The notes beneath the pieces were generated by a model. The model was not told where the DNA came from, made no database searches, and saw nothing but the letters and a program-made list of their open reading frames with translations. Of a DNA stretch of 25,569 nucleotides, positions 21,379 through 24,860 are shown piece after piece (within the stretch, counting starts at the first letter, position 1; every line of letters begins with the position of its first letter). The DNA lies in the IMG/VR virus record IMGVR_UViG_3300025769_000752, positions 1 to 25,569 of that record, one strand, 5' to 3'. A program made the translations under genes and the position numbers. The stretch comes from a virus.

Positions 21379-22278
21379 TTAACTTATCAAATATGCTTTG
21401 ACGATGAGGTTCCACTTCGAGCTATCGATTGTACTACCGCCTCCGTCGCCTTGATTGGTGTATTCTGCTATGCCTGATGATCCTACGCGGATGTATACAT
21501 TCGTGGAGTCCTTGCGAATACTGACACCCTCGTTTCCACCCGATGGATCTGCGTGTCCACTAGAGATTTGTATGATTTCACCAACTGCGTATCCTAAGTC
21601 AATGGATGTACATACGAGATCTAAAGTTACGAATGTAGGCACAGCTCCCAAAGAGTGAGTGTGGGTGTACAGGGTACCATTTGCAAAACTAGCGGCAGAG
21701 CTTTCAAACTTCGTTATGCCACTTGTAGCATCGACATAAGCCTTCACGGACTGCTGGGAGGGTACTGCCGTAGCTGAATTAGATGCCATGTCGTCTTCAT
21801 CTAAGAAGTCTAAAGTAGAGGCTGCGGTAGCTGAACTAAAGTATGGAACCTTGTTAGTAGCCTGGGTAAGACCGGCGAGGTCTGTAAGGATGTCATTCAA
21901 GCCTTGTCTAGCGTCCAGCTGCGTTTGTATAGCTGAGGTAACGCCATCGACGTAGTTGAGTTCTGCTGTGGTGGCTGTAACGCCATCGAGTAGGTTCAAT
22001 TCAGCTGCGGTTGATGTGACACCATCGAGGATATTTAGCTCAGCTGCTGTACTGGTAACTCCATCGAGAATGTTGAGTTCAGCTGCCGTACTTGTGACGC
22101 CATCCAGGATGTTGAGTTCAGCATGGGTCGCTGTGACTGCGCCGGTTACACCTGGGAATGAAGCTTTGATAGTACCTTTGATGAGGCGTAGGTGGTCATC
22201 AGCTGCTGAGAGGGCGTCGGTTGAGGCTGGGTTTGAACTATTGAGGCTATCAATGTACGTTCCGGATTCTAGAGCCAT
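21379..22278 (-). CDS. Tail fibre with 13-residue repeats
   Basis: A 299-residue protein preceded by AAAAGGTAATAAACC. The N-terminus (YIDSLNSSNPASTDALSAAD, then DHLRLIKGTIKASFPGVTG) is the standard opening of many short phage fibres. Residues 53-116 hold five 13-residue units of AELNILDGVTST(A/T) type, which form a stalk in other fibre proteins. A coiled-coil hinge (VPSQQSVKAYVD) follows, then a compact beta-rich tip (180-299) with LGAVPTFVTLDLVC and YAVGEIIQISSG. It probably makes a trimer at the tail. It is the first virion gene after the long intergenic region, so it is likely first in the late transcript. Confidence 0.85.
   Translation of the reverse strand: MALESGTYIDSLNSSNPASTDALSAADDHLRLIKGTIKASFPGVTGAVTATHAELNILDGVTSTAAELNILDGVTSTAAELNILDGVTSTAAELNLLDGVTATTAELNYVDGVTSAIQTQLDARQGLNDILTDLAGLTQATNKVPYFSSATAASTLDFLDEDDMASNSATAVPSQQSVKAYVDATSGITKFESSAASFANGTLYTHTHSLGAVPTFVTLDLVCTSIDLGYAVGEIIQISSGHADPSGGNEGVSIRKDSTNVYIRVGSSGIAEYTNQGDGGGSTIDSSKWNLIVKAYLIS
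21931..22122 (-). repeat. 39-bp tandem repeat, five units, in fibre gene
   Basis: Five units of 39 bp encode AELNILDGVTST-type segments. All keep the frame, so a gain or loss of a unit would lengthen or shorten the fibre stalk without breaking it. Units differ at several silent positions, which suggests protein-level selection. Confidence 0.9.
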
Positions 22279-22444
22279 GGTTTATTACCTTTTGTGTAAT
22301 CTTAGGAGAGGCAGTGCCTCCATGTTTTAAAATTGGCCCTCTACTTAAGAAGGCCGAACAACAACAACAACAAGCCGAACCCTTTAACGGCATTTTGAAA
22401 TCATTAGACATTTCTGGGTACCGGGGGTCGTTTTTGGCAGCCAT
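22250..22444 (-). CDS. Doubtful cysteine-rich mini-gene
   Basis: A 64-codon frame from ATG 22444, with alternative ATGs at 22411 and 22393. The shortest version begins MPLKGSACCCCCSAFLSRG. Five consecutive cysteines come from a short TGT repeat. No start has a convincing ribosome site, and the frame runs 29 bases into the fibre gene. Cys-rich small proteins do exist in phages, but chance is as likely here. If real, it could be a metal-binding or lipid-modified peptide. Low confidence. Confidence 0.2.
   Translation of the reverse strand: MAAKNDPRYPEMSNDFKMPLKGSACCCCCSAFLSRGPILKHGGTASPKITQKVINHGSRIRNVH
22308..22320. promoter_or_regulatory. Dyad in fibre-gene leader
   Basis: GAGGCAGTGCCTC is a perfect dyad (6 bp each side of one central base) 30 bases before the fibre ATG. 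It could be a repressor operator or a small 4-bp hairpin in the mRNA leader. It also overlaps the doubtful mini-gene. Confidence 0.35.
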
Positions 22445-22504
22445 GGTACCAGAATTGGCACTACAATAGGCTAAGTCATTGATATTGCTAGGTTTGCATG
22501 AACG

Positions 22505-22521
22505 TCAGATAAACTATCTGA
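22505..22521. promoter_or_regulatory. Perfect 7-bp hairpin
   Basis: TCAGATA and TATCTGA flank three bases. No T-run follows on either strand, so it is a possible operator, RNA-processing stem or weak terminator in the leader of the virion genes. Confidence 0.45.
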
Positions 22522-22545
22522 GGGTCATCATGAGTATACTTTTGA

Positions 22546-22567
22546 GACATTAGGCTTTGGACATTAG
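22546..22567. repeat. Direct repeat GACATTAG, two copies 14 bp apart
   Basis: GACATTAG occurs at 22546-22553 and 22560-22567, followed by GC and CC. AGGCT/AGCCT (22552-22556 and 22566-22570) also form a small dyad across them. This could be a paired protein-binding site; chance is possible for so short a repeat. Confidence 0.35.
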
Positions 22568-22575
22568 CCTCTGAA

Positions 22576-22612
22576 ATTTGTCGGCATAAGGCCTTTTATT
22601 TTAACGACAAAT
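22576..22612. promoter_or_regulatory. 8-bp inverted repeat with AAGGCCTT inside
   Basis: ATTTGTCG (22576-22583) and CGACAAAT (22605-22612) are perfect complements around a 21-base AT-rich loop containing the palindrome AAGGCCTT (22588-22595). It looks like a protein-binding dyad or a stem-loop. The AT-rich loop would melt easily. Confidence 0.45.
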
Positions 22613-22633
22613 CGGGACATGGTTCATACTATA

Positions 22634-22695
22634 GTTACTCCTAAGTCTCGACTAAGAGCTTGCCTTATAGCGGAAGCGGCAAGCTTCTGAGTAAC
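22634..22695. promoter_or_regulatory. Two-tier inverted repeat
   Basis: An inner stem AGCTTGCC/GGCAAGCT (22657-22664, 22678-22685) closes a 13-base loop. An outer stem GTTACTC/GAGTAAC (22634-22640, 22689-22695) encloses it, with a 16-base unpaired left arm. It borders the box array at 22705. No U-tract follows, so it is not a standard terminator. Confidence 0.5.
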
Positions 22696-22704
22696 CTCCA
22701 AGGT

Positions 22705-22815
22705 CCACCAATGATATCCAATGATACCACTAATGAATGACCAATGATACCACCAATGATATCCAATGATACCACCAATGATATCCAATGATACCACCAA
22801 TGATATCCAATGATT
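22705..22815. repeat. Iteron-like array of ten CCAATGAT boxes
   Basis: CCAATGAT starts at 22708, 22718, 22741, 22753, 22763, 22775, 22785, 22797 and 22807, with one decayed box (CTAATGAA) at 22730. Spacings are 10, 12, 11, 12, 10, 12, 10, 12 and 10 bp, averaging one helical turn, so all boxes face the same side of the DNA. The array is built of 22-bp units, each with two boxes; the last three units are near-identical and join end to end. The 22-bp period is not a multiple of three, and no gene covers it, so it is noncoding. It is likely a protein-binding array: origin iterons, a transcription control region or a packaging or partition site. Confidence 0.85.
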
Positions 22816-22874
22816 ATATGCACCGCGTCGGACATGACCTCAGTCTATCTCTTATAGGTCGCCATGGAGTTAAT

Positions 22875-22890
22875 CCCTTGTAGACAAGGG
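22875..22890. promoter_or_regulatory. Perfect 7-bp hairpin CCCTTGT/ACAAGGG
   Basis: CCCTTGT and ACAAGGG flank AG (or a six-pair stem with a TAGA loop). On the minus strand it is followed by ATTAACTCC, not a U-tract. It may be a terminator-like stem or an operator between nrdJ and the virion genes. Confidence 0.45.
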
Positions 22891-22917
22891 CTACATCAGT
22901 ACCTATATGTTGTACCA

Positions 22918-22992
22918 GGTAACCCATGGGAGTGCAGTTACCCTAGCTACTTCACGGTGGCACGACTGGGTGCAATCTCCTCATGGGTTGCC
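22918..22992. ncRNA. 75-base nested inverted repeat, possible structured RNA
   Basis: The outer arms 22918-22928 and 22982-22992 pair over 11 positions. Inward, GGAG (22929-22932) pairs with CTCC (22977-22980), TGCA with TGCA (22933-22936, 22971-22974), CCC with GGG (22941-22943, 22968-22970) and AG with CT (22945-22946, 22966-22967), leaving a 19-base terminal loop. Small bulges break the stem, as in natural RNAs. At the third outer position the plus-strand RNA makes a G-U wobble, while the minus-strand RNA has a C-A mismatch, so a plus-strand transcript folds better. This would run against every gene in the window. It could also act as a DNA cruciform or as part of the minus-strand leader. 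Confidence 0.5.
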
Positions 22993-23067
22993 GCCTTACT
23001 ATCTTAGTACTCTTTCTTTAACAGAAATCCCAGATTAAACTAATGTATTCAATGGTTTATGAGGTAC

Positions 23068-23090
23068 TTGAGGCGCGACTGACGCCTCAA
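23068..23090 (-). terminator. Hairpin just past the nrdJ stop
   Basis: Six bases past the nrdJ stop, TTGAGGCG and CGCCTCAA form a perfect GC-rich 8-bp stem around a 7-base loop. The position is right for ending the replication-gene message, but the next bases (GTACCTC on the minus strand) lack a U-tract. It may be a weak terminator or a 3'-end protecting stem. Confidence 0.55.
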
Positions 23091-23096
23091 CCACCG

Positions 23097-24860
23097 TTAT
23101 TCACAAGACTTCTGACCTGTCAGGGGATCAATGTAGCAAGCTTCTCCTCCTCCTCCTCCAGTAGCTATCTCCTCCTCCTCCTTCTCCTCCTTCTCTTCTT
23201 CCTCATCAGTCTTCACCATTGGTACTTCATTGAGGATGCCATAGCGTTTACCTGATGCTCTGAACGTAGTGATGCCTTTGCATCCATTCCTCCATGCATC
23301 CAGGTACAGATCCTTGAACTGTTCATAGGTAACACTGTCGCCAACATTACAGGTCTTAGAGACTGCACTATCAACGAACTGACTAGCGACACACAACACC
23401 TCAAGGTGCTTCTCAGCTGTTATCTCATTGGCTGTCTTACCTTTAAAGCCACGAGCATAAGCGTAGTCTTGGACTAACTCAGTTCTAGTGCCCTCAAAGG
23501 TTGTCAATGTCCTTGTGTATTCATTAGAGAACGGTGGCTCGATGCCAGAGGAGATGTTGTCGGCTACCAAGCTGATTGTCCCGGTTGGAGCGATAGATGT
23601 CAGGTGGCTATTCCTGATGCCAAAGGCGCGGATCTTCTCTTGTAGCCACTCAGGTAACTCTTTGATGAAGCTGCTCTTCAGATAGTCTTTTGATCGATAC
23701 ATCGGGAAGCTACCCTTCTCTTCAGCTAGGTCAGCTGATGTAGAGTAAGCTGCATTCCTCAGTATCTCCAGGACTTGCCTGGTGAACAGGAGGAAGCTAG
23801 CTGTTCCATACTCGAGGTTCATCATTGATCCAGCATTAGCTAAGCCAGTGATACCCAAGCCCATCCTTCTCTTGTTCTTAGCTTCGTCTTCTTGATGAGG
23901 TAGCGGATAGATTGTTCTATCAATGACATTGTCCATGGCTCTAACGACATGAGTTATGTCCTCTTCGAACTCGATCCAGTTGAATTGACCACAGCCATCT
24001 AACATTCCTACATACTGAGTTAGATTGAAGGAGCCTAGCAAACAGGCGCCATAAGGTGGGAGTGGCTGCTCACCGCATGGGTTCGTTGCAGCGATCTCTT
24101 CACAGTAGTAGAGGTTGTTCTCTGCATTGATTGTGTCGATGAATAAGACACCTGGCTCAGCCCAGTCCCAAGTACCTCTCATGATTGCATCCCATAGTCC
24201 AACCGGGTCTACACTATCGTAGACCTTGCCTTCGAACTTAAGATCAAATGGCTTCTTAGCATCCAGGCACTCCATGAACTTATCAGTGACGCCAACTGAT
24301 ATGTTGAAGCCAGTGAGCTTATCTGAGTTGTGCTTGGCATTGATGAACTCCATGATGTCTGGGTGATCGATCCTCAGTACACCCATCTGTGCCCCTCGTC
24401 TTGCCCCAGAGGAGCTGATCGTCTGACAGATGGCATCGAAGATACCCATGAACGACACCGGTCCTGATGCCTTGCTATCTAAGCTCTTAATGAGGTCACC
24501 ACGGGGTCTAATGTGACTGAAGTCATAACCAATGCCTCCACCCTTCCTCATGGTCTGTGCAGCTGATGTAGCAGCACTCATGATAGACTCCATGTCATCA
24601 TTAATTTGCTGAGAGACGAAGCAGTTGTAGGCTGTTGTCTGTCGAGCTGCACCCATGGCATTCTGGACACGACCAGCCGGGAGGAACTTCATCTCACGAA
24701 GGATATCTCTCATAGCATCAAAGTGTTGATCATTGTCAGCGAGGGCATGAGCTATCCTGGTACACTTGGCACCGAAGTCTTCGCCAGTCTGTCTGTATTT
24801 CATTTCGTCGATCTCATTAGACAGCTCTAGAGTTGGACCATACTGGCGATTAGATATCAT
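23097..24860 (-). CDS. nrdJ: Class II (B12-dependent) ribonucleotide reductase
   Basis: A 587-residue enzyme reducing ribonucleotides to deoxyribonucleotides with adenosylcobalamin. Visible: redox Cys 80 (AYNCFVSQ); RKGGGIGYDFSHIRPRGD (106-122); GARRGAQMGVLRIDHPDI (152-169); the active-site loop NPCGEQPLPPYGAC with Asn 260, Cys 262, Glu 264 and partner Cys 273; and APTGTIS (424-430). The 11-residue Cys-Cys spacing matches class II enzymes. It has no N-terminal ATP-cone, so ATP/dATP on-off control is probably absent. The tail is unusual: an acidic Glu/Lys run (552-564), a Gly5 linker, then Cys 575 and Cys 586, presumably the swinging redox pair. It overlaps the DUF3310 gene by 11 bases. No small (NrdB) subunit is needed or seen. 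Confidence 0.93.
   Translation of the reverse strand: MISNRQYGPTLELSNEIDEMKYRQTGEDFGAKCTRIAHALADNDQHFDAMRDILREMKFLPAGRVQNAMGAARQTTAYNCFVSQQINDDMESIMSAATSAAQTMRKGGGIGYDFSHIRPRGDLIKSLDSKASGPVSFMGIFDAICQTISSSGARRGAQMGVLRIDHPDIMEFINAKHNSDKLTGFNISVGVTDKFMECLDAKKPFDLKFEGKVYDSVDPVGLWDAIMRGTWDWAEPGVLFIDTINAENNLYYCEEIAATNPCGEQPLPPYGACLLGSFNLTQYVGMLDGCGQFNWIEFEEDITHVVRAMDNVIDRTIYPLPHQEDEAKNKRRMGLGITGLANAGSMMNLEYGTASFLLFTRQVLEILRNAAYSTSADLAEEKGSFPMYRSKDYLKSSFIKELPEWLQEKIRAFGIRNSHLTSIAPTGTISLVADNISSGIEPPFSNEYTRTLTTFEGTRTELVQDYAYARGFKGKTANEITAEKHLEVLCVASQFVDSAVSKTCNVGDSVTYEQFKDLYLDAWRNGCKGITTFRASGKRYGILNEVPMVKTDEEEEKEEKEEEEIATGGGGGEACYIDPLTGQKSCE

Follow-up and report, generated by a model that had tools for sequence, protein, structure and literature searches.

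Gene order at the early/late junction

The window, by which we mean the whole 25.6-kb stretch of DNA analysed, is a fragment of a marine phage with its main genes all on the minus strand. On that strand a 5'-3' exonuclease, a DUF3310 protein and a class II ribonucleotide reductase (RNR) are followed by a gap of 818 bp (22279-23096) and then by the virion genes, which encode a tail-fibre-like protein, large virion proteins, terminase, and a portal and a capsid protein of the SU10 type (Table 1). Right behind the RNR gene there is a stem-loop (23063-23095, GGTACTTGAGGCG / CGCCTCAACCACC) lacking a T run on the gene strand, which is possibly the end signal of the operon. The tail-fibre-like gene contains a 39-bp tandem repeat (21941-22137) with the repeated peptide AELNILDGVTST.

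To gather relatives, we searched with the RNR, with the tail-fibre gene and the virion gene that follows it, and with a motif; more than 100 IMG/VR contigs share the gene order and the gap of the window. The group is large, uncultured and marine, and its early gene set is like that of pelagiphages and cyanophages. The core genes of 13 complete or nearly complete genomes comprise integrase, RNA polymerase, SSB, endonuclease, primase-helicase, polymerase, exonuclease, RNR and the virion genes; a tyrosine integrase is encoded in all 13, and each complete relative also has a T7-like RNA polymerase. The phage is a mosaic, in which a pelagiphage-like early module is joined to an SU10/LUZ24-like virion module, the kinship of the latter being based on weak similarity (about 30%) and Pfam matches. 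In genomes G002, G003, G004, G005 and G008 (loci L347-L354, L326-L328 and L358-L360), the early module, running from integrase to RNR and roughly 12-15 kb long, is inverted as a block with respect to the virion module.

The Autographiviridae P-SSP7, HTVC019P and Bylgja share this early order (int-RNAP-SSB-endonuclease-primase-pol-exo-RNR). Unlike these phages, which are essentially gapless at the corresponding junction, the present group has an SU10-like virion module starting there, and a conserved element fills the seam; in the inverted genomes it lies between the diverging modules. The location at a functional boundary of the genome, claimed in the original prediction, is conserved in related phages.

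Table 1. Features of the RNR/tail-fibre junction in the window
Feature	Coordinates	Strand	Basis
Class II ribonucleotide reductase, last early/replication gene	23097..24860	-	Pfam PF02867, E=2e-113
Candidate phage RNA polymerase promoter AACTCCATGGCGACCTATAAGAGATAGA / CATGGCGACCTATAAGAG	22844..22871	-	Position; 12/14 match (counted by eye) to the repeated motif TGTCGTCCTATAAG of G001
Phased array of ten boxes (ATCATTGG on the late-gene strand), period 22 = two boxes	22705..22815		TRF, spacing, relatives
Decayed box CTAATGAA	22730..22737	+	Sequence and spacing
Degenerate continuation of the array towards the late genes: ACCTTGGA (22697-22704), ACTTAGGA (22639-22646)	22639..22704	-	Similarity; ACTTAGG is a common box in relatives
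Conserved block TCCCGATTTGT..AAAA	22594..22617	-	Alignments of 38 and 96 nonredundant elements
Conserved block GACAAATTTC and two CTAATGTC motifs (22560-22567, 22546-22553)	22546..22585	-	Element alignments
Dyad GACCCTCAGA-TAGTTTA-TCTGACGTTC, candidate second integrase core-type site	22500..22526	-	Strongest covarying pairs; arms in relatives track attP
IHF consensus site TATCAATGACTTA (WATCARNNNNTTR exact)	22472..22484	-	Enrichment; near-fixed 36-37 nt after the dyad anchor
Covarying small palindrome TGGTACCA	22444..22451	-	Alignment columns 248/252; spacing to the IHF block quantised at ~11 bp
Conserved blocks CGACCCCCGG (22421-22430) and GATTTCAAAATGCCGTTAAAGGG (22380-22402)	22380..22430	-	Element alignments
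Conserved trinucleotide tract (GTT)5	22357..22373	-	Element alignments
First virion gene, tail-fibre-like, N-terminus MALESGTYI...	21379..22278	-	PHROG tail protein for the G010 homologue

The phased array

Exact boxes CCAATGAT start on the plus strand at 22708, 22718, 22741, 22753, 22763, 22775, 22785, 22797 and 22807; together with the decayed box these nine copies extend over 22708-22814, with spacings of 10, 12, 11, 12, 10, 12, 10, 12 and 10 bp (mean 11.0). Dinucleotide shuffling of the intergenic region (2000 rounds) yields CCAATGAT 0.024 times on average and never more than once, and TRF reports a period of 22, 5 copies and a score of 190. The nine intact boxes and one decayed box, with spacings mainly of 10 and 12, are thereby confirmed. 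A period of 11.0 bp gives sharp phasing (R=0.94) and one of 10.5 bp moderate phasing (R=0.52), with a drift of ~17 degrees per box and ~155 degrees across the array. Thus neighbouring boxes share a face of the DNA, as had been proposed for all of them, but the array as a whole winds slowly round the helix. All three plus frames and one minus frame are stopped within the array, but two minus frames are open throughout its 111 bp; the claim that the array is non-coding is therefore based mainly on the 22-bp period and on the divergence in relatives.

The array recurs in three near-identical contigs (L008, L013 and L014), one of them with an altered box. Distant relatives (RNR about 55-70% identical) have other boxes in the same place, namely CATTGGTCAAT, GACATTGGTCT, GACATGGGTCT, ACTTAAGAGT and GACTTAGGT-like ones. 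Hence a search of related phages for the 8-bp box and its spacing, as originally suggested, recovers the spacing at the same place but not the box beyond near-identical contigs: the sequence of the box varies, and a spacing of mostly 10 or 11 bp is kept. In agreement with this, the mean autocorrelation of 86 relatives has peaks at lags 10 and 11 and smaller ones at 20-22, 30 and 33. The phase of the boxes relative to the TCCC block shows no clear single value across genomes. In the otherwise nearly identical L020, L021 and L022, the intergenic region measures 774, 824 and 834 nt, and TRF sizes the array at 20, 25 and 26 units; such arrays thus expand and contract, which supports the recent expansion suspected in the window.

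On the late strand, a candidate promoter precedes the array. In the window it is weak and unrepeated, whereas in about 7 of 12 complete relatives a repeated promoter-like motif precedes the 3' core by 450-680 nt, which places it ahead of the array. Genomes G001, G006, G007 and G011 have more copies near the starts of early genes, e.g. integrase, RNAP and SSB. Where the early module is inverted, as in G003, the copy preceding the array is still on the late strand, and the copies of the early module are on the opposite strand. Judged by sequence and position, these motifs are likely to be phage promoters, in line with the T7-like RNA polymerase of every complete relative. An upstream activator array, which was one of the functions initially considered, does not fit this arrangement, since the array sits downstream of the phage-RNAP-like promoter.

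A conserved noncoding element

A conserved noncoding element of ~450 bp, present at the RNR/tail-fibre junction in more than 100 IMG/VR contigs, has the array as its upstream arm. The part on the late side of the array, ~300 bp long and containing an IHF site and an integrase-like core dyad, was overlooked in the original prediction. The late strand carries, in this order, the phage-RNAP-like promoter, the array, conserved blocks, a GA-N7-TC dyad, a site with the IHF consensus, further blocks, (GTT)5 and the first virion gene. Within the element, 96 nonredundant copies have the order TCCCGATTTGT, CTAATGTC, GAT-N5-ATC dyad, IHF-like site, GGTNCC palindrome, CCCCC, TTTCAAA..TAAAGG and (GTT)5. 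A gene starting with MALESGTYINSLN... nearly always follows these copies; in at least one contig (L249) a different open frame comes next. The (GTT)5 tract, which lies ahead of the first virion gene, is strikingly conserved in both the window and the relatives. A blastn search with the element of contig L167 against 50,697 cultured phage records gave no match.

Distances between several of the conserved blocks change in steps of one helical turn. In particular, the IHF block is 20, 31-32, 42-43 or 53-55 from the palindrome and 70, 82, 93 or 104 from TTTCAAA, and TCCC is about 80, 91, 102 or 110 from the dyad. The rule applies to part of the element only, and distances involving the CTAATGTC motif are not helically quantised. 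The IHF assignment is based on WATCARNNNNTTR, which is exact in 47 of 96 elements as compared with 4.7% of shuffles (~tenfold enrichment), and which lies 36-37 nt after the dyad anchor in 47 of 53; such a match at a constrained position is what would be expected of an IHF-bound architectural site.

We also considered that the element might serve the late operon as a structured RNA leader at its 5' end, as it is conserved, probably transcribed, and contains a hairpin-capable dyad with covariation. However, the folding MFE z is equal on both strands (p=0.85), with no difference between sense and antisense, and the dyad has no excess of G-U pairs, being richer in A-C mismatches. RNAalifold on the 96 elements returned zero energy, and Rfam searches of the window and relatives at gathering and relaxed thresholds gave nothing credible, the relaxed matches (e.g. 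HOTAIR) being far below the cut-off. A structured noncoding RNA was therefore rejected, as neither strand-specific stability, nor covariation tolerant of G-U pairs, nor an Rfam family was found, and a leader RNA is a very improbable explanation of the element. The absence of an RNA strand signal, combined with the helical-turn steps in spacing, indicates that the element acts as DNA in a nucleoprotein complex. These two observations, and a period of 10-11 bp with differing boxes in relatives, also sustain the initial notion of a protein-binding DNA array.

The dyad and the phage attachment sites

In six relatives, a tRNA 3' end resembling an attP site lies 175-890 bp from the integrase gene, and the arms of the element dyad resemble the anticodon-stem arms of the tRNA at the attP of the same phage. 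For instance, the element of G001 reads CAGTCGA-TATGTTA-TCGATTG and its attP reads CAGTCGA-CTCATAA-TCGATTG. The window ends before its own integrase gene, and this step is based on the relatives. The arm score is the better of two orientations. In the main test (n=13, including the exception G012), dyads score 10.46 of 16 against the tRNA arms of their own phage and 8.95 against permuted ones (p=3e-5). A wider tRNA search resulted in 11.12 for own and 9.28 for permuted pairs (n=16, z=5.3, with 0 of 100,000 permutations reaching the own score), but it demands A at loop position 6 and so excludes G012; the test including G012 is taken as the main figure. Both permutations treat related phages as independent, and the correlation is retained when each anticodon loop is represented by a single phage (n=7, p=0.0005). 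The first, unrestricted scan of arms around int was weaker (p=0.0025) because of noise, and limiting it to tRNA anticodon stems sharpened the signal. The attP remnants were not found by ARAGORN, since they are partial.

The correspondence is not uniform. On a genome-wide scale, the dyad matches better than any position other than attP in three of eight phages (G001, G007 and G009, among 77,000-86,000 positions), is close to the top with ties in G002 and G006, and ranks weakly in G010 and G011; matches between dyad and att arms are weak in G010, G011, G022 and G056. In G012, which has a tRNA-Pro site and two integrases, the dyad fails to match the att arms. With this exception, the dyad of the relatives has what would be expected of a core-type site, namely inverted arms, a spacer of 6-8 bp and a match to the arms of the own attP. 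GA-N7-TC, which does not vary in the dyad, is also common to the tRNAs used by the fitting phages; as GA and TC were preconditions of the constrained dyad search, this agreement is suggestive only. The spacer has 2-5 of 7 identities with the tRNA loop, and thus the dyad is not a copy of attP. In view of this mismatch and of the tRNA 3' ends near int, the element was rejected as the attP of the phage.

Two observations concern integrases and their sites in single genomes. Two tandem tyrosine integrase genes are present in G012 (L338) and G033 (L364, L381). G010 has a further dyad, CCAGAGAGGA-ATCATTA-TCTATTGA, near a tRNA remnant (L361, around 2400-2560); it has a 10-bp arm in common with the dyad of the element, and is perhaps an additional integrase core site.

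Possible function of the element

We consider it rather probable, from its sequence features, that the element is a nucleoprotein control site bound by integrase and IHF, with the array as one of its arms. The anatomy and conservation of the element, the helical spacing in part of it, and the correlation between dyad and att arms all argue for this at the sequence level. In the proposed mechanism, entry into the virion operon would be controlled by an att-like nucleoprotein site, of which the array would be the arm facing the promoter. Integrase would bind the dyad, IHF would bend the DNA, and some protein would coat the phased array; the wrapped complex might then block or delay the phage RNA polymerase entering the late genes for as long as integrase is abundant, and integration and virion production would become mutually exclusive. 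Since the 7-bp spacer of the site is unlike the attP overlap, integrase should bind there but not recombine the site with attP. Gating of the late genes taken alone is a plausible but tentative reading. Its more elaborate version, in which integrase is the lysis/integration switch and silences the late operon from a second, non-recombining core site with the aid of IHF and the array, taking the place of a dedicated repressor in T7-like phages that carry an integrase, is doubtful. The constant orientation of the element towards the late genes could be due to common descent.

The main rival to gating is the resolution of concatemers by cutting at the element. The integrase would recombine two copies of the element within replication concatemers and release monomer circles fit for integration, the array and the IHF site serving as accessory sequences that impose topology. 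The geometry of the dyad is that of a cleavable tyrosine-recombinase site, its 7-bp spacer being retained with T and A usual at the edges, and a spacer so unlike attP would allow it to recombine only with itself; the helical spacing rules and the precedent of Cre/loxP, which keeps P1 monomeric (PMC2409434), are in favour as well. Nevertheless, multimer resolution or circularisation explains neither the order promoter-array-late genes nor why so much sequence is conserved towards the late genes, and we regard it as unlikely. Still less likely is a replication origin, with an iteron array and an IHF site, unwinding at (GTT)5 and neighbouring blocks, and firing by the upstream phage promoter, in the way a phage promoter fires the primary origin of T7. 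The direct repeats with a 22-bp period and the IHF site do resemble iteron plasmid origins (PMC4980987); the repeats are in helical phase, a promoter is located upstream of the array, and the element occupies an early/late junction that is divergent in part of the group. But no initiator was found among the core genes of the 13 genomes, although small divergent proteins could escape detection, and the tracking of attP arms by the dyad has no explanation in an origin. A GC-skew extremum is observed near the element in many genomes; it was discarded as evidence, since it follows gene orientation and the break at the element flips with the inverted early module. The specific suggestion of origin iterons in the original prediction is thus not upheld, and its interpretation as a whole is partly supported.

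The least credible alternative is that the element is the attP of the phage, or else a cos/pac site for DNA packaging in which terminase binds the array. In lambda, both cos and attP combine repeats, IHF sites and a dyad. The element joins the same components (for attP, see PMC4880445), but in most complete contigs the ends overlap and fall at varied positions, with no common end at the element, and the attP-like tRNA 3' ends mentioned above are away from it.

Taken as a nucleoprotein control site, the element is similar to the lambda-type attP intasome (about 240 bp) in its core dyad with a 7-bp spacer, flanking arms, IHF site and helical geometry (PMC4880445). In contrast to lambda attP, a separate tRNA-matching attP is found here beside int, the spacer of the element differs from attB, about ten boxes 10-11 bp apart lie downstream of a late promoter, and the G010 integrase (273 aa) apparently has no arm-binding domain. 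The loxP site of P1 and cer of ColE1 are likewise tyrosine-recombinase dyads, used there on copies of themselves, and cer carries phased accessory sequences. Unlike in these systems, the recombinase seems to be shared with tRNA integration, and resolution is putative; the array and IHF take the place of the ArgR/PepA sites of cer. The iteron origins of R6K gamma and pSC101 combine phased direct repeats (22 bp in R6K gamma) with an IHF site, as does the element with its 22-bp repeats; it differs in the 10-11 bp distance between boxes, the attached integrase-like dyad and late promoter, and in that no Rep initiator was found.

T7-like cyanophages integrate by means of integrase and attP without known repressor homologues or stable lysogens, and the reason why T7-like marine phages often carry an integrase without a known repressor is an open question (PMC8776855). 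Given such phages, a second integrase site would be informative under gating and resolution alike. The integrase-like site at the entrance to the late genes leads us to propose that integrase may act on late expression or on genome resolution in addition to integration. The element would then be a compact, helically quantised nucleoprotein site, of which box sequence, block spacing and att specificity vary naturally across relatives.

Finally, the arrangement differs in two cases. In G009 (end of L342, start of L341), ~750 bp with an apparent extra gene lie between the element and the tail-fibre gene. A SAR116 single-cell contig (L363:2500-7254) contains a decayed stretch of this phage type, in which the element is present and the tail-fibre gene is broken, adjoining frames that read as a bacterial ABC transporter; this suggests an alphaproteobacterial host and past integration. 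A match in Patescibacteria (L362) is located in a ribosomal-protein operon and was taken as chance.
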